Part shown: positions 6,075 to 31,930 of the stretch, in pieces
How the letters are laid out: each line of letters begins with the position of its first letter
How positions within the stretch are numbered: position 1 is the stretch's first letter
NCBI RefSeq assembly: GCF_030503435.1
Contig: NZ_JAUKPO010000044.1
Location: 1-36,999, forward strand
DNA from: Rhodocytophaga aerolata
GTDB taxonomy: Bacteria; Bacteroidota; Bacteroidia; Cytophagales; 172606-1
DNA: 36,999 bases
Reading direction: 5' to 3'
Translations under genes and position numbers: made by a program
Notes under the pieces: model-generated
Told to the model about the DNA's origin: nothing
The model's input: only the letters and a program-made list of their open reading frames with translations
Database searches by the model: none

Positions 6075-7316
6075 TTAGGCATTCACAGGTTTGGCTGAAG
6101 TGGTAGACGACATAATCTGGCGGAGCCTGTTCTCTACTTCTTCAATATCAGCTATAATATGACTCTCATTGGATTCCCGTATATTTTTAGGTTTGCCCTT
6201 TAAATCTGACTCACATATCATATACTGGTAATTGATATCTCTGCGTTTGGAAATGATCTGATAGGTAGGCTTAATATAATGTTCAGAAAATATTTCCAAT
6301 AGGGCAGTGCCTTCCTTGCAATAGGAAAGATGAGCTAAACCTGCTCCATGTGCTGACACAATTACTTTAGCTGAAGCGAATAATTTTGCCTGCTGTTCGT
6401 AAGGCATTTTACTTAACAAAACATTCTTGAAGCCATACTTGCCTAACAACGCTTTTAGCTTATCTTCATTTAATACCTGGCGTATTTTAGAATCTCCGCG
6501 TTCAATATAAATCAACTCAGAGTGGTTGGCCGGGGCTCCTTTTTCCAGAATTAGCTGCCTGTACGAATCACACACCCATTTAGGAATAATCCTTCTGTAT
6601 TTGGTATGTGAACTAACAATCAGGTTATCTGCCTGAATATGGGCATGGCGGGCAATCTGAATAATTTTTTTGCCTTCCAAGCCTAACAGGTTTAAAACTT
6701 CTGTATGATATTTTTTGTCTAAGGCTGGTGTCAGGAAGTAATCTACTTTGTCGAACAATCCACTTTTTTTAAGCAAAAATAGACGAGCCACCGCATCATA
6801 CATCCAGTGAAAAATATTGGTGGTACAAGAGGCGCCAGCCAGCATTGAGAAAACAGTACCTTTATACTTTACCGGCTCTATAAATAATTTTTGCTTAAAG
6901 ATGTACATATCGGCAGCCGATGCGCCTATTACTGAGTCAGTGGTCTGGTAAGAAATGGGTTCAATCAGTTTGTTTTTTCCGGAAATTACCGATGTGCAGT
7001 GCCCCAAATAATTTTGCTCTATTCTACCGTTAGGAATAGAAACAATAAAAGAATCGGGAATCATATCTGCTGGCTGTGGCCGCAACTCTGGATTGCATTG
7101 CTGATAAAAAGGATCTTGCAGGTTTAAATCATTCGGGTACGAAGGAACAATATTATAAAAAGAAGCCCCTTCTGATTCTACTAACCCATTTTTTCCGGTG
7201 ATAGATGAGTAATACCCAGTAGGGCGGTAATGCTGATTATAAGGAAGACGGTATATGGAGAAATCAATGGCTCTGTTCTTAATCTTCTGGATAAGCTGCT
7301 TTGAGGTCATTTGCAA
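6075..7316 (-). CDS. Glycosyltransferase family 61-like protein
   Basis: 413 residues, no signal peptide, mostly soluble. The C-terminal half carries the GT61 (formerly DUF563) signature: LIYIERGDSKIRQVLNEDKL, the region KMPYEQQAKLFASAKVIVSA, then HGAGLAHLSYCKEGTALLEI. The HGAGL segment is the conserved core of this family. A central FHWMYDAVARLFLL segment also matches. GT61 enzymes move xylose, GlcNAc or other sugars from nucleotide donors, and in bacteria they are often found in polysaccharide gene sets. Here it stands alone, with a terminator downstream and no polysaccharide genes adjacent, so the acceptor cannot be inferred. The start at 7316 is followed by MTSKQ; Met3 is an equally possible start. 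Confidence 0.82.
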   Translation of the reverse strand: MQMTSKQLIQKIKNRAIDFSIYRLPYNQHYRPTGYYSSITGKNGLVESEGASFYNIVPSYPNDLNLQDPFYQQCNPELRPQPADMIPDSFIVSIPNGRIEQNYLGHCTSVISGKNKLIEPISYQTTDSVIGASAADMYIFKQKLFIEPVKYKGTVFSMLAGASCTTNIFHWMYDAVARLFLLKKSGLFDKVDYFLTPALDKKYHTEVLNLLGLEGKKIIQIARHAHIQADNLIVSSHTKYRRIIPKWVCDSYRQLILEKGAPANHSELIYIERGDSKIRQVLNEDKLKALLGKYGFKNVLLSKMPYEQQAKLFASAKVIVSAHGAGLAHLSYCKEGTALLEIFSEHYIKPTYQIISKRRDINYQYMICESDLKGKPKNIRESNESHIIADIEEVENRLRQIMSSTTSAKPVNA

Positions 7317-20693: not shown

Positions 20694-21923
20694 TTATAAG
20701 GTAGCAGCCACCATTTTACGGTCGACTGGCTTAAGGTCAGCATTGGACCAGTTTAACACCGGTTCCTGGCTCCATTCTTTTATCAACTTCTGGTAAGCTT
20801 CGCCTAGGGGACGGATGTTGCGGTCCATGTCGTACATGCCCAGTGAATTAATATTTCCGTTGTCTTCCCGTAAAGCTGTGTCCCAGTCTACCTGGTCAAT
20901 CAGGCTGTACCAGGTAAATCCGACAATTGGCACGCCATCATTTTTCAGTCTCACCAGGTTAGCCCATTGTTTCTGCAACCACTCTATGGCCATCGGTTCT
21001 TTCATATTGGTCTCGGTATGCATCAGAGGCAATCCGTACCGTTGATAATATTGCATAGCCACAGTATAGTACCCAAACAAATCTCCGGAAGCAGAGGTAT
21101 GTCCATTGGGATGAACCATATGCTCATTGGTTACATAATAATCAGTGCCTACAATAAAAGTAGCCTTTGTTGAATGGTTACGGAACCAGGCATATTCTGC
21201 TTTGGTCATGCCATTATTCAGCAAATACTGTTGCATACTTTCAGAAGGTGCATGACCTACGGTGAGGTCAAGCGGCAAGAAACGTTTCTGGTTCAGAAAG
21301 TCTGCTTTGGCCTGGCAGCTGGGGTCTTCGGCGTGAAAGTACTCACACGATTCACTCTGAATAAACACGGCATTCGGCTGTATCTCCAAAATTGCCTCAA
21401 TAGCCATCAGGTTAGCCTTGCACAAGTTTTTAAGGGCAGTTACATAGCTTTTCTCACTGCTCAGCCGCTCGTTCCACCAGCCATACTGGGCTGAGAACAT
21501 GGCAGCAATAAATATCTCATTAATAGGAGTGTAATACCGCTGATCTGGGAAACGCTTGGCATAGGCCCGGGCGTAGTCTGCAAAGTATACCGGAAAATCT
21601 GGGTTCTGGAAGTTGCCTATCCAATCTGGCACACCAAAATGACAAAGGTCAACAATGGGTGTAATTCCCAGACGTTTCATTTCGTAATTGGTTTCGTCTG
21701 TGAAACTCCAATCAAATCTACCAGGGGCTTGATGTATTTTATAATAGGGCCCACCGTACCGTAAAAACTCAATGCCACTTTCCTTTACTAAGTGCAGGTC
21801 TTCTTTCCAATATTGATAATGTTTGGCTTTTTCTAATTCATCTACCCGTTTGGTAGAGCCATCCGGCAACACAATAGTAGGATAACTATTTTCGATTCCG
21901 GTGGCAAACATAAATTTATTCAT
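20694..21923 (-). CDS. GH1-family glycoside hydrolase-like protein
   Basis: 409 residues from the ATG at 21923 (MNKFMFATGIENS). An in-frame start at 21986 would add 21 residues that look like untranslated leader. No signal peptide, so cytoplasmic. It is a GH1 (beta/alpha) barrel: the acid/base Glu136 sits in TPINEIF and the nucleophile Glu304 in LMHTETNM, spaced 168 residues apart, a little closer than in classical beta-glucosidases. The substrate loop differs too: GH1 enzymes usually show TENG where this has TETN. FTWYSLIDQVDWD matches the WSL.D.FEW region near the end. It is clearly related to the GH1-like half of the protein at 25099, which lies in the divergent operon. Hydrolase or transglycosidase activity on a beta-linked sugar is expected; the substrate is unknown. 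Confidence 0.85.
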   Translation of the reverse strand: MNKFMFATGIENSYPTIVLPDGSTKRVDELEKAKHYQYWKEDLHLVKESGIEFLRYGGPYYKIHQAPGRFDWSFTDETNYEMKRLGITPIVDLCHFGVPDWIGNFQNPDFPVYFADYARAYAKRFPDQRYYTPINEIFIAAMFSAQYGWWNERLSSEKSYVTALKNLCKANLMAIEAILEIQPNAVFIQSESCEYFHAEDPSCQAKADFLNQKRFLPLDLTVGHAPSESMQQYLLNNGMTKAEYAWFRNHSTKATFIVGTDYYVTNEHMVHPNGHTSASGDLFGYYTVAMQYYQRYGLPLMHTETNMKEPMAIEWLQKQWANLVRLKNDGVPIVGFTWYSLIDQVDWDTALREDNGNINSLGMYDMDRNIRPLGEAYQKLIKEWSQEPVLNWSNADLKPVDRKMVAATL

Positions 21924-22674
21924 ATAAAATAAATAGGTGAAATCAGTTTTTTGTATACAATATCTGTTCCTGAAATGCTGTAGCAACCAATAAAAGCAAA
22001 ATTATTCCGGAGGCTACTATTTTTCAAAACTAGAAGGAATCAGGCCATTTTCCTCGCCTAATCCGGTAGTAAACATACATGTAATATTTTCATTAAAAAG
22101 TTTGCAGAAATACATGTTAAAATAGGCTTATTTTAAGTTGGTAACCTAAGACAGGAAGCAGATTTTTACTCCAGGAAATCTTCTGTATTTAATGTAGTAA
22201 TCTTACTATCAATAAGTTGTAAATAATAAATGGAAACTGTTATCAACTAAAAAAGGTAACCGCCGGCATATGTATGTATGTTACCTGTTGTAAAATATTT
22301 GCTAAATAAATTTAATTTTTATGATATAATCCGTCAAATACAACCAAAATTTGTAAGGCTCCGTATAAATCTTCAGTTGAACCTGGCTTGATTCCCTTCC
22401 AGCAAAATATATCAATAGATCATGGCCGCATTACCCTTGGATGTATCGGATGAACAGAAAAAAGTTACTATACGGATAGATGCTCCTGATTGAATTATTT
22501 TTAGGAGATTTTAGCAAGCATGACAACAAACCATCCTTCTCTTTCCTCCCGGAGGTTTGTAGCAGATTAGCCGCCAGTGCTTTGCCATGTACTTTTTTAA
22601 TGCTTGTGCCTGGTAACAAGCTTCTTAAGGCTGAATAAGCCAAAAATATAAAATACTTTAACTTAACTATATAC
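21924..22674. other. 750-base divergent intergenic region upstream of the glycan locus
   Basis: A/T-rich region between the minus-strand GH1 gene and the plus-strand glycosyltransferase gene. It must hold the promoters of both. An inverted repeat AGGTAAC...GTTACCT lies at 22254-22286 with 19 nt between the arms. No convincing gene is seen in any frame. Confidence 0.5.
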
Positions 22675-23922
22675 ATGAGTTCTACTTTTCATGAATGGGC
22701 CCCTACTGCGGGTAGGGCTGAAAAAAATGTCTCTACTTTTAATACTGCTACTCTTTCCAATCAGGCCGGTGCAATGCAGGAACTATGGACTACGTTTGCT
22801 GATCTGGCTAAACCCTTACCCGATCTGATTTGTTTTTCCCACCTGCGATGGGATTTTGTATTTCAGCGGCCTCAGCACCTATTAAGCCGGTTTGCTTCGC
22901 AAATCCGGACGTTTGTTATTGAAGAGCCTATTTTTGATGCACCTCAATCGCCCGGGTTTATGCACCTAAGCAGCCGGGGCGAAAACCTGACCATAGCCGT
23001 TCCACACCTGCCTGGGGGCTATAGTGCCACGGAACACAATGCCATGCAAAAACAGCTGGTAGACCAGCTGCTGCAAGAGCAATCTATTAGTCATTTTGTG
23101 GCCTGGTATTATACGCCTATAGCCTTAAATTTTAGTAACCATCTAAAACCAGCCGTTACTGTGTACGACTGTATGGATGAACTTTCTGCCTTTGCCGGTG
23201 CACCGCCCGAACTGCTTATCAGAGAACAAGAACTTTTTGCCAAAGCGGACCTGGTATTTACCGGAGGACAGAGCTTATATGAAGCCAAGCGGGAGAAACA
23301 TCCGGCTGTATATGCTTTCCCAAGTAGTATAGAGCGTGCCCATTTTGCACAGGCCAAACATATCACCCAGCAACCGGCCGACCAGCAAGATATCCCTCAA
23401 CCTCGTATGGGCTTTTACGGGGTAATTGATGAACGGATGGATATAGACCTGCTAGGAAAAGTAGCCGAACTTCGCCCGGAATGGCAGCTAATCATGCTGG
23501 GGCCAGTAGTGAAAATTGATCCGGCAACCTTACCTAAGCCTGGCAATATCCACTATTTAGGCATGAAGTCTTATAAAGAGTTGCCAGCTTATTTGAGCGG
23601 ATGGGATGTAGCCCTGCTTCCTTTTGCCATGAATGAGTCCACCAGATTTATTAGTCCGACAAAAACACCGGAATATTTATCTGCGGGCATACCAGTGGTT
23701 TCTGCACCCATCCGGGATGTAGTAAAACCCTATGGCGAATTAGGACTCGTACACATTGCCGCTACTGCAGAAGAGTTTGTAAAAGCTATTGAGCTGGCTT
23801 TACAGCAACAGACTGATGCCAAGTGGCAGGCCGAAGTAGATAAATTTTTGTCGCAGCTTTCCTGGGATAAAACCTGGGGATATATGACTCATTTAATTTG
23901 CAGCCAGTTACAAAGCCGGTAA
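22675..23922 (+). CDS. Glycosyltransferase (GT-B fold, GT4-like)
   Basis: 415 residues, soluble. The N-terminal half has ICFSHLRWDFVFQRPQHLLS, a hallmark of a group of bacterial glycosyltransferases found with UDP-galactopyranose mutase. The C-terminal half has the GT-B nucleotide-sugar site: GFYGVIDERMDIDLL, KSYKELPAYLSGWDVALLPF and FISPTKTPEYLSAGIPVVSA, in which the Lys/Glu pair contacts the donor phosphate and sugar. It is the first gene of a three-gene set with glf starting 56 nt after its stop, so UDP-galactofuranose is a plausible donor. The start at 22675 lies in a Bacteroidota-like A/T-rich context. The first 35 residues look poorly conserved. Family call is firm; donor is inferred. 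Confidence 0.85.
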   Translation: MSSTFHEWAPTAGRAEKNVSTFNTATLSNQAGAMQELWTTFADLAKPLPDLICFSHLRWDFVFQRPQHLLSRFASQIRTFVIEEPIFDAPQSPGFMHLSSRGENLTIAVPHLPGGYSATEHNAMQKQLVDQLLQEQSISHFVAWYYTPIALNFSNHLKPAVTVYDCMDELSAFAGAPPELLIREQELFAKADLVFTGGQSLYEAKREKHPAVYAFPSSIERAHFAQAKHITQQPADQQDIPQPRMGFYGVIDERMDIDLLGKVAELRPEWQLIMLGPVVKIDPATLPKPGNIHYLGMKSYKELPAYLSGWDVALLPFAMNESTRFISPTKTPEYLSAGIPVVSAPIRDVVKPYGELGLVHIAATAEEFVKAIELALQQQTDAKWQAEVDKFLSQLSWDKTWGYMTHLICSQLQSR

Positions 23923-23978: not shown

Positions 23979-25130
23979 ATGTTTGATTATTTAATTGTAG
24001 GCGCAGGTTTTGCAGGCAGTGTACTAGCAGAACGGCTGGCAAACGAGGCAGGAAAAAAAGTATTAATTATAGATAAACGAAACCATATTGGTGGAAATGC
24101 ATATGATTTTTACGATGATGCCGGAATACTTATTCACAAGTACGGGCCTCATATTTTTCATACCAATTCACCGGAAGTATTCTCCTACTTGTCCCGCTTT
24201 ACGCAATGGAGACCCTATGAACACCGGGTACTTACAACAGTAGAAGGAAAGCTTTTGCCTATCCCCATCAACCTGGATACCGTAAATAAGCTTTACGATA
24301 AGAACTTTACTTCTGAAGAACTGGAACAATTTTTAAACTCCATCAAAGAAGATGTAAAACAGATCCGTACGTCAGAAGACGTAGTAGTAAGCCAGGTAGG
24401 CCGCGATTTGTATGAGAAATTCTTCCGGGGTTATACACGTAAGCAATGGGGCATGGACCCCTCGGAACTGGATAAGGCCGTAACTTCCCGTATTCCAACC
24501 CGCACCAACCAGGACGACCGCTATTTTACAGATACCTACCAGGCTATGCCTCTGCATGGATACACCAGGATGTTCGAAAAAATGCTGACTCATCCCAACA
24601 TCCATATCATGCTCAATACCGACTATAAGGATTTGAAAGGCGTTATCCCCTATAATAAATTGATTTTTACAGGTCCGGTAGACGAATACTTTGATTATTG
24701 CTATGGAAAATTACCTTACCGCTCATTAAACTTTGTACATAAAACCTATGATGTACGGCAATTCCAGCCAGTAGCGGTAGTAAATTATCCTAATGATCAC
24801 GAATACACCAGGATTACCGAATACAAACACTTAACTGGCCAGACCAATGAAAAAACAAGTGTAACTTATGAGTTTCCCTGCTGGAATGGCGACCCTTATT
24901 ATCCAGTGCCTAAGCCTGAAAATGCTGAACTTTACCAGAAATACAAAAACCTGGCAGATGAAACACCAGATGTTCATTTTGTGGGCAGGCTGGCTACTTA
25001 CCGGTATTATAACATGGACCAGGTAGTAGCACAGGCTTTGGCAACCTATAATAAATTATCTCAGCGTACACTGGCTGAACAACTAGTAACCAAAAAGAAT
25101 GGCTGGAAATCACAATTATCCGCCAGTTGA
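23979..25130 (+). CDS. glf: UDP-galactopyranose mutase
   Basis: 383 residues, the usual length. It begins with the FAD dinucleotide motif (VGAGFAG, Gly8-Ala-Gly10 to Gly13) followed by DKRNHIGGNAYDFYDDAG. Further family motifs are HKYGPHIFHTNSPEVFSYL, GYTRKQWGMDPSELDK, IPTRTNQDDRYFTD and, near the end, FVGRLATYRYYNMDQVVAQA, which holds the Arg and Tyr residues that bind substrate and FAD. The enzyme converts UDP-galactopyranose to UDP-galactofuranose, the donor for cell-surface galactofuranose. Its last 32 nt overlap the next gene, which suggests translational coupling. This is the most certain enzyme call in the locus and points to a galactofuranose-containing glycan. Confidence 0.97.
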   Translation: MFDYLIVGAGFAGSVLAERLANEAGKKVLIIDKRNHIGGNAYDFYDDAGILIHKYGPHIFHTNSPEVFSYLSRFTQWRPYEHRVLTTVEGKLLPIPINLDTVNKLYDKNFTSEELEQFLNSIKEDVKQIRTSEDVVVSQVGRDLYEKFFRGYTRKQWGMDPSELDKAVTSRIPTRTNQDDRYFTDTYQAMPLHGYTRMFEKMLTHPNIHIMLNTDYKDLKGVIPYNKLIFTGPVDEYFDYCYGKLPYRSLNFVHKTYDVRQFQPVAVVNYPNDHEYTRITEYKHLTGQTNEKTSVTYEFPCWNGDPYYPVPKPENAELYQKYKNLADETPDVHFVGRLATYRYYNMDQVVAQALATYNKLSQRTLAEQLVTKKNGWKSQLSAS

Positions 25131-27312
25131 GGTTTGGGCAGGTGTAGAATGTACGGTCAACAGGGTAGCCGATCATTTCAACGATCAGCTCCTGTTGAAC
25201 GGGCATCATCACCGCCTTGATGATCTGGAACACATTGCCTGGCTGGGAGTACGCACCATCCGTTATCCGGTTTTGTGGGAACGTACGGCCCCTAAAAGCC
25301 TTGCAAAGCCCGACTGGCATTGGACCGATCAACGTCTTTCTAATTTAAAAAGCCTGGGCATTAATCCTATTGCCGGATTAACCCACCATGGCAGCGGACC
25401 TTCCTACACAAGTTTAGCGGATGCTTCTTTTGCAGAAGGACTCGCACAGTATGCGGGTATGGTGGCCAGGCGGTATCCATGGCTTACACATTATACACCT
25501 GTAAATGAACCCTTAACCACTGCCCGTTTCTCAGGTTTGTATGGGCACTGGTATCCACACAAACAAAGTCCTTTGTTGTTTGTACAAATGTTGCTGAATC
25601 AATGCAAAGCCACCGTTTTGGCTATGAAACAGATTAGGCAGGTACAGCCAGATGCCTTGCTGGTTCAAACAGAGGATCTGGGGCAAACCCACAGTACACC
25701 TGAACTTGCCTATCAGGCAGACTTTGAAAATAGCCGCCGCTGGCTTACTTATGATCTGCTTTGTGGGAAAGTGAACAAAGGCCACCCGATGTATGCGTAT
25801 TTTCAATGGCTGGGAATTCCCGACAGCGAAATTATTTTTTTTCTGGAAAACCCTTGTCCGCCAGATATTCTCGGGGTAAACCATTACCTGACGAGCGAAC
25901 GTTTTCTGGATAGCCGTACAGATTTCTACCCGCAGCATATGCGGGGAGGCAATGGCAGACATGCCTACGTAGACACAGAAGCCATTCGTATTCCGGAAGT
26001 AGAGGTAGCTGGGCCATACAAGTTGATCAGGCAGGTGTGGGAGCGGTACAAACGGCCGATTGCTATAACAGAAGCTCATCTGGGCTGTACCAGAGAAGAG
26101 CAGCTTCGATGGCTGCACCAGATCTGGCAGACAGCCGGCAAACTACGGGAAGAGGGTGTAGATATACGGGCAGTTACTGGCTGGTCAATGCTGGGCTCCT
26201 ATGATTGGGATAGTTTGCTAACCAATATCCGTGGACATTATGAACCAGGATTATTTGATGTACGGGCCCCTCAACCCAGGCCAACTGCACTAGCCAAGTA
26301 TATCAAAAGCCTTACCAGTGGACAACCTATAGAATATCCCGTACTGGATAGCCCAGGCTGGTGGCAACGCAACGACCGCTGGATCGGCCACTGTTTACAA
26401 CCTATACTGGATAATGCAGCAGACGAGGTAGTATTGCCAGCCCGCGGCCGGCCCATTCTGATCACCGGAGCCACAGGCACATTGGGTAATGCCTTTGAAA
26501 GAATATGTTCCCAAAGAGGCTTATCATTTATATTACTTAACCGGCAGGAGATGGATATTTCCTCTGCTGAACAGGTTGAAGCAGCTGTTACCAAATATCA
26601 TCCCTGGGCAATTATCAATACAGCTGGCTATGTACGGGTGGAACAGGCAGAAAGTGAGCCGGAAAAATGTTTCCGGGAGAACGTAACCGGCGCCGCTGTA
26701 CTGGCAGAGGTTTGCCGCAAGAAAGGAATTCGATTGCTTACCTATTCATCAGACCTGGTTTTTGATGGACAAGCAACTAAACCTTATACAGAAAAAGATA
26801 CGGTGCACCCACAAGGTGTCTATGGAGAAAGTAAGGCAGAAGCAGAAAAGCAAGTTATGGGTATTCTGCCCAGCGCCTTAGTAATCCGGACAAGTGCATT
26901 TTTCGGCCCATGGGACGAACATAATTTTTTGACCTTATTCTTACGGTCCCTGCAAAACGGTGAACCTTTCGATGTGAAAACAAATGAGTATATAAGTCCA
27001 ACCTATGTGCCTGATCTCGTGCATACCAGCCTGGATCTGTTAATAGATGGCGAAGAGGGTATTTGGCACCTGGCAAACCAGGGCTCGATTAGCTGGGCAG
27101 ACTTTGGAAGAACCGTTGCTTTGCAGGCCGGATTCGATGCAGATATGGTAGAAACCTGGTACCAGAAGCAACTAAAACAGGCAGATACAGATGCTAAAAA
27201 GTCTACAGCCCTTAGTAGCTACAAATTGCACAGTATGCCACTATTGGCGAATGCCATTTCAAGGTATGTACACGAATGTACACTTTGGAAAGTACCTGTT
27301 ATTGCACTATAG
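25099..27312 (+). CDS. Fusion of GH1-like glycosidase and RmlD-like sugar-nucleotide reductase
   Basis: 737 residues in two parts. Residues 10 to about 410 are a GH1-like barrel with acid/base Glu137 (TPVNEPL) and nucleophile Glu325 (AITEAHLG), 188 residues apart as in true GH1 enzymes; both catalytic Glu are kept. Residues 450-737 are an extended SDR of the dTDP-4-dehydrorhamnose reductase (RmlD) type: ILITGATGTLG (Gly457-Gly463), AIINTAGYVRVEQAE, SSDLVFDG and the catalytic Tyr575-x-x-x-Lys579 (YGESK). The region ISPTYVPDL is also typical. It overlaps glf by 32 nt, so the two are co-translated. It may make or reduce a sugar nucleotide and then use or edit the glycan product. No signal peptide; cytoplasmic. 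Domain calls are strong; the combined role is unknown. Confidence 0.88.
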   Translation: MAGNHNYPPVEVWAGVECTVNRVADHFNDQLLLNGHHHRLDDLEHIAWLGVRTIRYPVLWERTAPKSLAKPDWHWTDQRLSNLKSLGINPIAGLTHHGSGPSYTSLADASFAEGLAQYAGMVARRYPWLTHYTPVNEPLTTARFSGLYGHWYPHKQSPLLFVQMLLNQCKATVLAMKQIRQVQPDALLVQTEDLGQTHSTPELAYQADFENSRRWLTYDLLCGKVNKGHPMYAYFQWLGIPDSEIIFFLENPCPPDILGVNHYLTSERFLDSRTDFYPQHMRGGNGRHAYVDTEAIRIPEVEVAGPYKLIRQVWERYKRPIAITEAHLGCTREEQLRWLHQIWQTAGKLREEGVDIRAVTGWSMLGSYDWDSLLTNIRGHYEPGLFDVRAPQPRPTALAKYIKSLTSGQPIEYPVLDSPGWWQRNDRWIGHCLQPILDNAADEVVLPARGRPILITGATGTLGNAFERICSQRGLSFILLNRQEMDISSAEQVEAAVTKYHPWAIINTAGYVRVEQAESEPEKCFRENVTGAAVLAEVCRKKGIRLLTYSSDLVFDGQATKPYTEKDTVHPQGVYGESKAEAEKQVMGILPSALVIRTSAFFGPWDEHNFLTLFLRSLQNGEPFDVKTNEYISPTYVPDLVHTSLDLLIDGEEGIWHLANQGSISWADFGRTVALQAGFDADMVETWYQKQLKQADTDAKKSTALSSYKLHSMPLLANAISRYVHECTLWKVPVIAL

Positions 27313-28615: not shown

Positions 28616-28750
28616 AATCTTTTTGTTCTTCTAAAAAAATAGATAATTTACTGTCTTTTCAATTATGACCTATCTAGTTAGTGAGAGTTAGCTTATCAGC
28701 AGATCTGGCAACTTTAGCTGGATATTTTTTAGATTAAACGCTTGCCATGT

Positions 28751-31700
28751 ATGAAACACCTATCCGATCCTTTTTTTCAGCAAACCAGACGAAGCAAAAA
28801 CCGGACATTGCTTTATCTTTTTTCCGTTTTGCTTTTGACAACCCTTGCAACACAAGTTGCCGCACAAGTTTTTCCTCAGGGATTCAGCCAGGTAACGGTG
28901 GCGCAGAATCTGAATAAAGCAACCTTTGTAGCCTTTGCTCCGGATGGACGTATCTTTATAGGGGAGCAGGCAGGCAGAGTACGCATCGTAAAGCAGGGTA
29001 GTTTACTCAGCACCCCTTTTTTAACCTTGAGCGTTAATTCTTCCGGCGAACGTGGAATTATCGGTTTTACTTTCGATCCCAATTTCACAAACAATGGCTA
29101 TGTCTATGTCTATTATACAATGCCGGATGCCAGTAGGAACCGAGTAAGCCGTTTTACAGCCACCGGAGATGTAGTACAAGCTGGCAGTGAGAGAGTAATT
29201 CTGGAATTAGATCCATTGAGCAGTGCTACGAACCATAATGGCGGAGCCATGAAATTTGGAAAAGATGGCAAGTTATATATTGCTATAGGAGATAACGCCA
29301 ATACAGCCCACCCGCAGAACCTGGATACCTATCATGGAAAAGTAGTACGTATTAATCCGGATGGTTCAGTGCCGGCTGGCAATCCCTTTACCACAGGTAC
29401 TGAACAAAAACGCCGGATATGGGCCTATGGATTCCGCAACCCTTATACCTTTGATGTACATCCGGTTTCGGGTCAACTATTTGTGAACGATGTAGGGCAA
29501 AGCACCTGGGAGGAAATAAATAATGTAACCACTGGCGGGGGAAATTACGGCTGGCCGCGGGCAGAGGGGATGAGTACGAATACAGCTTTTGTTAATCCGG
29601 TACATGCCTATCCTACTTCCGGCAATCCCGGAAACGATATTGGCTGCGCGATTGTGGGAGGTACATTTTTTAATCCGGTTTCCACCAACTATCCACCAGA
29701 ATATGTAGGCCGGTACTTTTTTCAGGATTATTGCAATGGCTGGATTCGCAGTATACCTGTACAGGGAGGAAGCAGCACATTGTTTGCCTCTAACCTGGTA
29801 AGTTTTTCCCTGGCACTTACCACCGGAACCGACGGAAATTTGTATTACCTCAACCGGAATACCAGTACCCTCTACAAAATTGTCTACACCCCCAGTGCTA
29901 CGCTTCCTGTTATTACCAGCCATCCGGCAAACCGCACGGTTGCTGAAGGACAATCAGTTACTTTTAGTGTAAGTGCTTCAGGTACGGCTCCCTTACGCTA
30001 CCAGTGGCAAAAAAATGGAGTTAACCTGAGTGGCGCTACTTCTGCTACCTATACCATTACTACCACCAAAACAACCGATGCCGGACAATACCGGGTACTA
30101 GTAAGTAATGCTGTAGGTAGTGTAACCAGCAATACAGCAACCCTTACTGTACAAACCACAAACAAAGCTCCCGTAGCTACCATACTAACGCCTGCAGCTG
30201 ATAAGTTATATCAGGGGGGAGAAACCATTAGCTTTTCCGGTAGTGCCACCGATACAGAAGATGGCAGTTTACCAGCCAGTGCCTTTAGCTGGGAGGTTGT
30301 ATTTCATCACGATACGCATTTTCATGATGGTCCGCCGGTGGCAACCGGGGTAAAAAGTGGATCATTTCAGATTCCAAGCAGCGGCGAAACGGCCCACAAT
30401 GTTTGGTATAGATTGTATTTAACTGTAACGGATTCTAAAGGGCTAACTCACAAAATTTACCGAGATATTTATCCGTATAAGTCCATTATCAGTTTTGCCA
30501 CAGAACCAGCAGGATTAACTGTAAACCTGGATGGAAGACCGGTTACAACGCCAGTATCTGTTACTGGCGTAGCCGGGATTACACGGTCCATTGGGGCAGA
30601 TGCTACGCAGATACTAAATAATGTAACCTATGAATTTGCGTCCTGGAAACATGGGGGAACTAAAGAGCAAACCATTACTACTCCGCTGACAAACACTACT
30701 TATACGGCTGTTTTCCGGCAAAAAACAGATTTAAGAAACGGCGAAAACCCACCTGCCACTGTGGCTGGCTTGGTATATCAGTATTATGAAGGCAATTTTA
30801 CCCTCTTACCAGATTTTGCCAGGCTCACGCCCATAAAAAGCGGCTTTACAAGTAACTTTACCTTAACGCAGCGCAACCGGAATGATGAGTTTGCTTTCCG
30901 CTTTACCGGGTTTATTCAGATTCCGGCAGATGGTGTGTATACGTTTTATACCAACTCCGACGATGGTAGCCAGCTATATATCGGTAATACACTGATCGTA
31001 GACAATAATGGTTTACATGCTGCTCAAGAAAGATCTGGAAGTATCGGCTTAAAAAGCGGAAAACATGCCATTACCGTAACGTTCTTTGAAAAGACAGGCG
31101 GTGAACTGCTAAATGTAAACTACGCAGGTCCGGGTATAAGTAAACAGTTGATTCCGTCATCGGCTTTATTCAGAATTCCGGAAAATGCCTTTACTGCGAA
31201 GGTGAACTTTCAACCAGAATCCAGTGCGGTACCATCCGGATATGTAGCCGATTATGGAGATAGCTTTGGCAGCCGGGGAAATAACCTGAGTTATGGATGG
31301 AATGCGCCAACCAAAGAAACGCGTGAACGCAATACCACAGACGATGTTAAGTTCAGAACGTTGAATCATTTACAAAAAACTTCCAATCCGAATGCCACCT
31401 GGGAAATAGCCCTACCGAATGGAACCTACCAGGTAACCCTAGTTTGCAGCGACCCATTGTACACAGATCAACTTAATACGTTGTTGGTGGAAAATATGAC
31501 GTTAACAGACCCGGATGGCTACGACCTGATAGATCAATATTCGTTTACGGTTTCTGTAACCGATGGCCGGTTAACCATCAAGCCTGCTTCGGGTGCTGTG
31601 AATGCTAAAATTTCCTTTGTTGAGATAAGCCAGATCCCGCAATCAGTAGCTAAACTCGAAACAACGGATTTGCCTTCATCAGAAATAGCTTTGTTTCCTA

Positions 31701-31930
31701 ACCCCACAACAGAAAGCCTGACGCTTCAAATTACAGCCACCCAGGAAGAAACTGTATCCCTAACACTGACAAATACACTCTCCCAAGTTGTAAAGGCCAG
31801 TACCTACTCATTGGCTAAAGGAGAAAATAATATCAGACTAGAAACCGGGCAGCTTTCAAGTGGAACGTATCTGCTTACGATTATACAAGGCAGCAAACAA
31901 ACGGTGAGAAGAATCAGCATCGTAAAATAG
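28751..31930 (+). CDS. T9SS-secreted PQQ sugar dehydrogenase-like protein with Ig-like, PA14 and malectin-like domains
   Basis: 1059 residues from ATG 28751; the TTG at 28742 is a weaker start. Signal peptide to about residue 38. Residues 40-380 are a sorbosone/soluble glucose dehydrogenase propeller: NHNGGAMKFGKDGKLYIAIG holds the catalytic-type His162, and YGFRNPYTFDVHP the Arg229 expected near PQQ. Then come an Ig-like domain (384-470, YQWQKNGVNLSGATSATYTI), a PKD-like region (471-575), a small beta domain (579-655), a PA14 domain (672-810, YTFYTNSDDGSQLYIG), a malectin-like region (815-960) and a T9SS sorting domain (977-1059, LFPNPTTESLTL and TYLLTI). It likely oxidises sugars outside the cell, with the extra domains binding carbohydrate. 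PQQ must be made elsewhere or imported. Domain borders are approximate. Confidence 0.88.
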   Translation: MKHLSDPFFQQTRRSKNRTLLYLFSVLLLTTLATQVAAQVFPQGFSQVTVAQNLNKATFVAFAPDGRIFIGEQAGRVRIVKQGSLLSTPFLTLSVNSSGERGIIGFTFDPNFTNNGYVYVYYTMPDASRNRVSRFTATGDVVQAGSERVILELDPLSSATNHNGGAMKFGKDGKLYIAIGDNANTAHPQNLDTYHGKVVRINPDGSVPAGNPFTTGTEQKRRIWAYGFRNPYTFDVHPVSGQLFVNDVGQSTWEEINNVTTGGGNYGWPRAEGMSTNTAFVNPVHAYPTSGNPGNDIGCAIVGGTFFNPVSTNYPPEYVGRYFFQDYCNGWIRSIPVQGGSSTLFASNLVSFSLALTTGTDGNLYYLNRNTSTLYKIVYTPSATLPVITSHPANRTVAEGQSVTFSVSASGTAPLRYQWQKNGVNLSGATSATYTITTTKTTDAGQYRVLVSNAVGSVTSNTATLTVQTTNKAPVATILTPAADKLYQGGETISFSGSATDTEDGSLPASAFSWEVVFHHDTHFHDGPPVATGVKSGSFQIPSSGETAHNVWYRLYLTVTDSKGLTHKIYRDIYPYKSIISFATEPAGLTVNLDGRPVTTPVSVTGVAGITRSIGADATQILNNVTYEFASWKHGGTKEQTITTPLTNTTYTAVFRQKTDLRNGENPPATVAGLVYQYYEGNFTLLPDFARLTPIKSGFTSNFTLTQRNRNDEFAFRFTGFIQIPADGVYTFYTNSDDGSQLYIGNTLIVDNNGLHAAQERSGSIGLKSGKHAITVTFFEKTGGELLNVNYAGPGISKQLIPSSALFRIPENAFTAKVNFQPESSAVPSGYVADYGDSFGSRGNNLSYGWNAPTKETRERNTTDDVKFRTLNHLQKTSNPNATWEIALPNGTYQVTLVCSDPLYTDQLNTLLVENMTLTDPDGYDLIDQYSFTVSVTDGRLTIKPASGAVNAKISFVEISQIPQSVAKLETTDLPSSEIALFPNPTTESLTLQITATQEETVSLTLTNTLSQVVKASTYSLAKGENNIRLETGQLSSGTYLLTIIQGSKQTVRRISIVK

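Follow-up and report, generated by a model that had tools for sequence, protein, structure and literature searches.

A GH1-RmlD fusion gene beside glf in Rhodocytophaga aerolata and its possible place in a galactofuranoside pathway

The UDP-galactopyranose mutase (UGM) of Deinococcus radiodurans has solved structures, but no account of the purpose of its galactofuranose (Galf) was found in the part of the open-access literature that was covered. Plant SFR2 is a membrane-bound GH1 protein with a galactose theme and without an RmlD domain. MAT2B, the RmlD-like subunit of methionine adenosyltransferase 2, has a regulatory role. Here we analyse a stretch of 36,999 nucleotides from Rhodocytophaga aerolata (contig NZ_JAUKPO010000044.1; hereafter the window) in which a single gene encodes a GH1 domain and an RmlD-like domain, directly after a glycosyltransferase (GT) gene and glf. 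On balance, we favour the reading that the two-domain product works in the cytosol as an enzyme of a conserved Galf pathway, with the RmlD-like part as an accessory. We interpret the gene set as a galactofuranoside pathway; neither a description of such a pathway nor a study of the fusion was found in the literature covered. The architecture, gene order, linkage and the conservation and loss of motifs reported below are read directly from the sequences.

Architecture and distribution of the fusion gene

The fusion gene and its parts are as follows.

25099..27312, plus strand: GH1-RmlD fusion gene, 737 amino acids (aa)
25099..26388, plus strand: GH1 domain (PF00232), residues 1-430, the region conserved in 106 orthologous proteins
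25507..25509, plus strand: codon of E137, the presumed acid/base, aligned with the NEP of solved GH1 enzymes (106/106)
26071..26073, plus strand: codon of E325, the presumed nucleophile, aligned with the TE of solved GH1 enzymes (106/106)
26389..26430, plus strand: linker, residues 431-444, low model confidence
26455..27225, plus strand: RmlD-like domain (PF04321), residues 453-709, motifs at 455-463 and 575-579

The open reading frame (ORF) begins with ATG and has no internal stops. Pfam Glyco_hydro_1 (PF00232) matches residues 27-371 at 42.0 bits (cut-off 22.6), which places the protein in GH1, and RmlD_sub_bind (PF04321) matches residues 453-709 in the same frame at 200.9 bits (cut-off 27). 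E137 lies within NEP and E325 within TEAHL, while the glycine motif ITGATGTLG (455-463) fits GxxGxxG and Y575-K579 forms the YxxxK motif. The first-pass annotation had described one polypeptide with both catalytic glutamates and both intact reductase motifs, and all of these features are borne out. An AlphaFold2 model built from 57 aligned sequences has a predicted local distance difference test score (pLDDT) of 91.0 and a predicted template modelling score (pTM) of 0.91, with pLDDT below 50 only at residues 1-4, 431-444 and 733-737. In a Foldseek search with this model, RmlD proteins took ranks 1-16, MAT2B rank 17, and GH1 glycosidases followed from rank 18.

An assembly artefact or a chance read-through of two genes is hardly credible as the origin of this frame. 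The window itself offers nothing in its favour, and the one such hint comes from a Sphingomonas daechungensis plasmid (L115, 8097-10138), where separate genes are annotated for the GH1 and SDR parts and the match falls in two pieces. Against it, the frame is conserved across independent assemblies, and the same in-frame join recurs both in the window's family and in other phyla.

A scan of genome_contigs with the window's GH1 domain gave at least 570 confirmed relatives, from which the best 80 loci by similarity were kept, a sampling by GH1 that may under-count unfused relatives. The GH1 frame continues into RmlD in 79 of these 80 loci (L045 stops at the contig end; L027 and L093 end within RmlD). 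The 80 loci span 11 phyla, with 49 being cyanobacterial, and plasmid matches add Deinococcota to make 12. In the plasmid search 44 plasmids matched, 19 of them covering at least 80% of the whole fusion protein; where annotations are given, they read 'family 1 glycosylhydrolase', 'sugar nucleotide-binding protein' or 'SDR family oxidoreductase'. The first two of these each describe one half of the fusion. Within phyla the distribution is patchy. The window's genome has one full fusion copy, and only five of 296 sampled genomes of its phylum match at E 1e-120 (its own included), one of them through a 460-aa GH1-only protein. In the phylum of the Nostocales cyanobacterium that carries L037 (genome G347), seven of 194 genomes match, G347 included, with open frames of 730-774 aa. 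The database search that the first-pass annotation had proposed for the two domains thus finds the fusion widespread and patchy within phyla, and the claim that these domains are rarely combined does not hold, given its recurrence in both contig and plasmid matches. Judging by names alone, several carriers belong to groups that live in deserts or biocrusts or tolerate radiation.

Linkage of the fusion gene to glf and a glycosyltransferase gene

The genes upstream of the fusion in the window are as follows.

23979..25130, plus strand: glf, UGM of the D. radiodurans type (TIGR00031, 3hdq), overlapping the fusion gene by 32 nucleotides (nt)
22675..23922, plus strand: TuaH-like GT gene preceding glf (Glyco_trans_1_4, 30.8 bits, cut-off 27)
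20694..21986, minus strand: second, separate GH1 gene (GH1b; PF00232, 45.4 bits), of its own clade and divergent from the GT gene

The window's Glf scores 423.4 bits against TIGR00031 (cut-off 303.75), as expected of a UGM, and matches the solved D. radiodurans UGM 3hdq at 620.1 bits (E 1.3e-185), with the next solved UGM at 298.5. The GT is less closely assigned, scoring 79.3 bits against the TuaH model, far under the cut-off of 550. The order GT, Glf, GH1-RmlD is conserved, with the fusion usually as the third gene. A Glf more than 55% identical to the window's is present in 62 of the 80 loci (median 69.5%, range 65.6-81.6) and lies directly upstream on the same strand in 56 of those 62. A GT homologue is present in 66 of the 80 loci, and in 34 a single ORF encodes both GT and Glf. 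In one metagenome-assembled genome (L089) the GT is fused to GH1-RmlD in a single 1329-aa ORF, whose GH1 part has no Pfam GH1 match at E 0.001 and is assigned by 58.5% identity. The glf and fusion genes also adjoin on plasmids of Gloeothece, Caballeronia, D. aetherius and Sphingomonas hankookensis, in slightly varying order, and lie about 12 kb apart in Azospirillum thermophilum. Among 59 genomes (the window's and relatives), this Glf type (at least 71% identity) was found in 11 of the 12 with a GH1 orthologue vs three of the 47 without (Fisher p 1.5e-8; the genomes are kin, and p is only a guide). Together, these patterns strongly suggest that the fusion is linked to Galf.

GH1b adjoins GT-glf in the window, where it stands head to head with the GT gene, and in genomes G001 and G002 and locus L101. 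The intergenic region between the two in the window (21987-22674) contains one imperfect 15-nt inverted pair, found in a repeat check.

Other arrangements around GT-glf were also seen. In L059 two full GH1-RmlD genes flank a single GT-Glf ORF at the same locus. On an Azospirillum argentinense plasmid (L133, 4879-10260) a 387-aa 'beta-glucosidase' that matches nothing in Pfam at 1e-5 comes after the GT-Glf ORF; the same locus encodes an ABC transporter whose membrane and ATPase parts are fused, a hint that a product may be exported. An FRG-domain gene directly follows GT-glf in D. radiodurans and D. deserti (L129, 7113-7631, and L132, 7098-7976).

Conservation of the two domains

An alignment of 106 proteins (the window's and 105 named rows; a frame filter on NEP alone removed none) was used to examine the GH1 domain. 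E137, E325, H96, H97, R143, Y148, W151, Y263, W362 and W370 are invariant in all 106, and the two glutamates occupy the NEP and TE positions typical of GH1. This strongly argues that the GH1 domain is the conserved active part of the fusion and that it is catalytically competent. In a profile alignment with solved beta-glucosidases, H97 (106/106) aligns with the usual Trp and D369 (95/106) with the usual Glu. We take these two to be glycone-site residues of beta-glucosidases, and the replacements suggest that the glycone site is unlike theirs. The TIGR03356 equivalog model for GH1 beta-glucosidases likewise gives only 53.3 bits (cut-off 478.5). A crude hydropathy scan of the 106 rows turned up no hydrophobic N-terminus resembling a signal, so the enzyme is probably cytosolic.

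The RmlD-like domain is more variable. The window's domain scores 207 against the rmlD equivalog TIGR01214 (cut-off 224.05). A comparison that aligned 13 of 86 fusions with seven stand-alone RmlD-like proteins shows Leu553 and Ala600 in the window's domain at positions that are Phe/Tyr (7/7) and Trp (5/7) in the stand-alone proteins. These aromatic positions, which presumably bind substrate, are thus changed in the window protein; Leu553 is shared by 86 of 98 relatives and Ala600 by 87 of 98. Both motifs are kept in 83 of 98 inspected domains (71 of 86 by a stricter rule) and one or both are altered in 15. The altered fusions include members of the window's family (L007-L010) and genus (L013). 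Five orthologues had no detectable RmlD match, two of which (L114 and L118) have 131 and 148 residues past the GH1 match that may be remnants. Six duplicate loci (L001, L002, L105, L108, L109 and L027) were removed before RmlD presence was surveyed. The arrangement GT-glf-GH1 without detectable RmlD occurs on one Ensifer and two Mesorhizobium plasmids, and the GH1 gene of L016, also without detectable RmlD, lies beside glf as well. We also placed these states on a quick GH1 tree, from which five distant GH1 rows were left out and in which 10 rows were labelled eroded under a motif rule other than that behind the 15 of 98. An eroded RmlD requires seven changes on this tree (at least five forced by starred branches) and an absent RmlD three (at least two forced). 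In L008, which lacks the motifs, the model still predicts that both domains fold (pLDDT 87.9, pTM 0.88). The SDR domain therefore loses its catalytic motifs in several lineages yet stays fused and is predicted to fold.

We read the RmlD-like part as an accessory, often non-catalytic domain. A bifunctional enzyme, in which RmlD would reduce a 4-keto sugar nucleotide or an oxidised glycoside and GH1 would transfer or edit the product, is a rather unlikely alternative. This alternative lies close to the idea of the first-pass annotation. It would suit the window protein and most relatives, in which neither motif set is altered, and it agrees with the confidently predicted domain arrangement. It fits poorly with the sub-threshold rmlD score, the changed aromatic positions, the altered motifs and the orthologues in which the domain is undetectable. 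Moreover, a separate RmlD over cut-off is encoded in the window's genome and nine others of 16 searched (the other six have none over cut-off). The idea that the fused domain is the genome's only rhamnose reductase is ruled out for those ten. The first-pass annotation had taken the domain for a sugar-nucleotide reductase; its intact motifs in the window stand, but a working reductase is made less probable by the same evidence.

Galactose genes nearby and comparison with known systems

Other sugar genes lie near the gene set in some loci. A GH2 gene is present in 22 of the 80 loci, from seven phyla. The GH2 proteins of L075, L053 and L090 each match the solved structures 7xyr and 7sf2 best, then 9j6m/9j6n, and so resemble furanosidases, beta-D-galactofuranosidase included; 9j6m/9j6n are named beta-D-galactofuranosidase (PMC12243196). 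In genome G003 about 2 kb separate the GT gene from a GH2 homologue (26% identity). GalE is found nearby in 23 loci, all cyanobacterial, and GalK and GalT in 12 loci each, 11 cyanobacterial plus the betaproteobacterial L090, where GalK-GalT-GH2 face GT-GH1RmlD-Glf. GH43 neighbours occur in 12 of the 80 loci. The best matches of the L072 representative are GH43, xylanase, xylosidase and arabinanase structures, so we assign this neighbour no role in Galf metabolism. A PhyH-family oxygenase gene was seen near the gene set in 17 loci (16 cyanobacterial and one planctomycete; for example L029, 3572-4375). Elsewhere in the window are a gene (28742-31930, plus strand) whose large product combines glucose/sorbosone dehydrogenase, Ig, PA14 and Por secretion-tail domains and one for a GT61-family glycosyltransferase (6075-7316, minus strand).

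An ordinary catabolic beta-glycosidase that acquired RmlD by chance, in an incidental neighbourhood, would account for the GH1 fold and catalytic pair, and the GH2, GH43, GalK and GalT neighbours could be catabolic. We consider this improbable. It is at odds with the low score for GH1 beta-glucosidase, the conservation of the non-standard active-site positions, the recurrence of the GT-Glf linkage across phyla and on plasmids, and the retention of the fusion in nearly all of the best loci.

In the Galf pathway that we favour, Glf would produce UDP-Galf, and the TuaH-like GT would build a glycoside from UDP-Galf or another sugar. The GH1 domain, of retaining type with both catalytic glutamates, would then trim, recycle or transglycosylate this glycoside. 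We hold catalysis by GH1 with strong confidence and its action on the GT product with moderate confidence. The RmlD-like accessory would be docked on the barrel. It would descend from an NAD(P)-binding reductase whose substrate site has changed, and it has been altered or lost in several lineages. The joint role proposed in the first-pass annotation, a GH1 transglycosidase or editor of a reductase product, keeps its basis in the fusion and the GH1 pair, but that proposal did not mention the overlapping glf upstream or the preceding GT gene. Transfer of the SFR2 kind would be one possible activity of GH1 alongside hydrolysis; the neighbouring genes are biosynthetic, and the crude scan showed no signal-like N-terminus.

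Several observations weigh against this reading. Twelve of the 80 loci lack a Glf although at least 3 kb of upstream sequence is available, Glf is only divergent in L090, and five loci end too early to judge. Runella has GT-GH1RmlD and no glf within the 11.5 kb examined, and in D. deserti about 126 kb of the same plasmid separate GT-glf from the fusion. In D. radiodurans the replicon that bears GT-glf, which is the one searched and is not the main chromosome, shows no GH1 orthologue. GT-glf also stands without an adjoining fusion in G001, a genome of the window's genus, where a locus without the fusion gene (L127, 4346-10092) carries GH1b, GT-glf on the other strand and a relative of window gene 27551, with nothing fusion-like between glf and that relative; G001 carries the fusion elsewhere (L013), with an altered Gly motif. 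In the window the gene set has no linked GH2 homologue, and the three in the window's genome are on other contigs. Finally, catalysis by RmlD is possible in the 83 of 98 fusions, the window's included, that retain both motifs.

A broader proposal, which we regard as speculative and doubtful, is that an intracellular galactofuranoside cycle is common to many phyla, several from dry or irradiated habitats, and that its product is a stress protectant. GT and Glf would build a soluble or lipid-linked Galf compound, which GH1-RmlD would remodel. The substrate of GH1 might be a furanoside or a glycoside capped with Galf, with the RmlD-derived part sensing NAD(P) and acting as a gate, and galactose might return to UDP-Gal through GalK, GalT and a GH2 furanosidase. 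The gene set makes the purpose of D. radiodurans-type Galf testable in at least 12 phyla.

The closest described systems each share part of this arrangement. The D. radiodurans UGM (3hdq) and its GT-glf pair have the same Glf type and GT type as the window, although, unlike in the window, the replicon carrying that pair (the one searched, not the main chromosome) has no GH1 orthologue. GH1 beta-glycosidases, such as the solved chain 9uct, share the fold and the NEP/TE glutamates with the window protein, which differs from GH1 beta-glucosidases in having His97 and Asp369 and in scoring far under their equivalog cut-off. SFR2 is alike in combining GH1 with a galactose theme, and differs in being membrane-bound and without RmlD. 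RmlD reductases (1vl0, 3sc6) have the same fold, Gly motif and YxxxK, whereas the fusion domain falls under the TIGR01214 cut-off, has changed aromatic positions, is fused and often has altered motifs. MAT2B offers an RmlD-fold domain in complex with another enzyme; it is a separate subunit with an unrelated partner and serves only as an analogy for an accessory RmlD.

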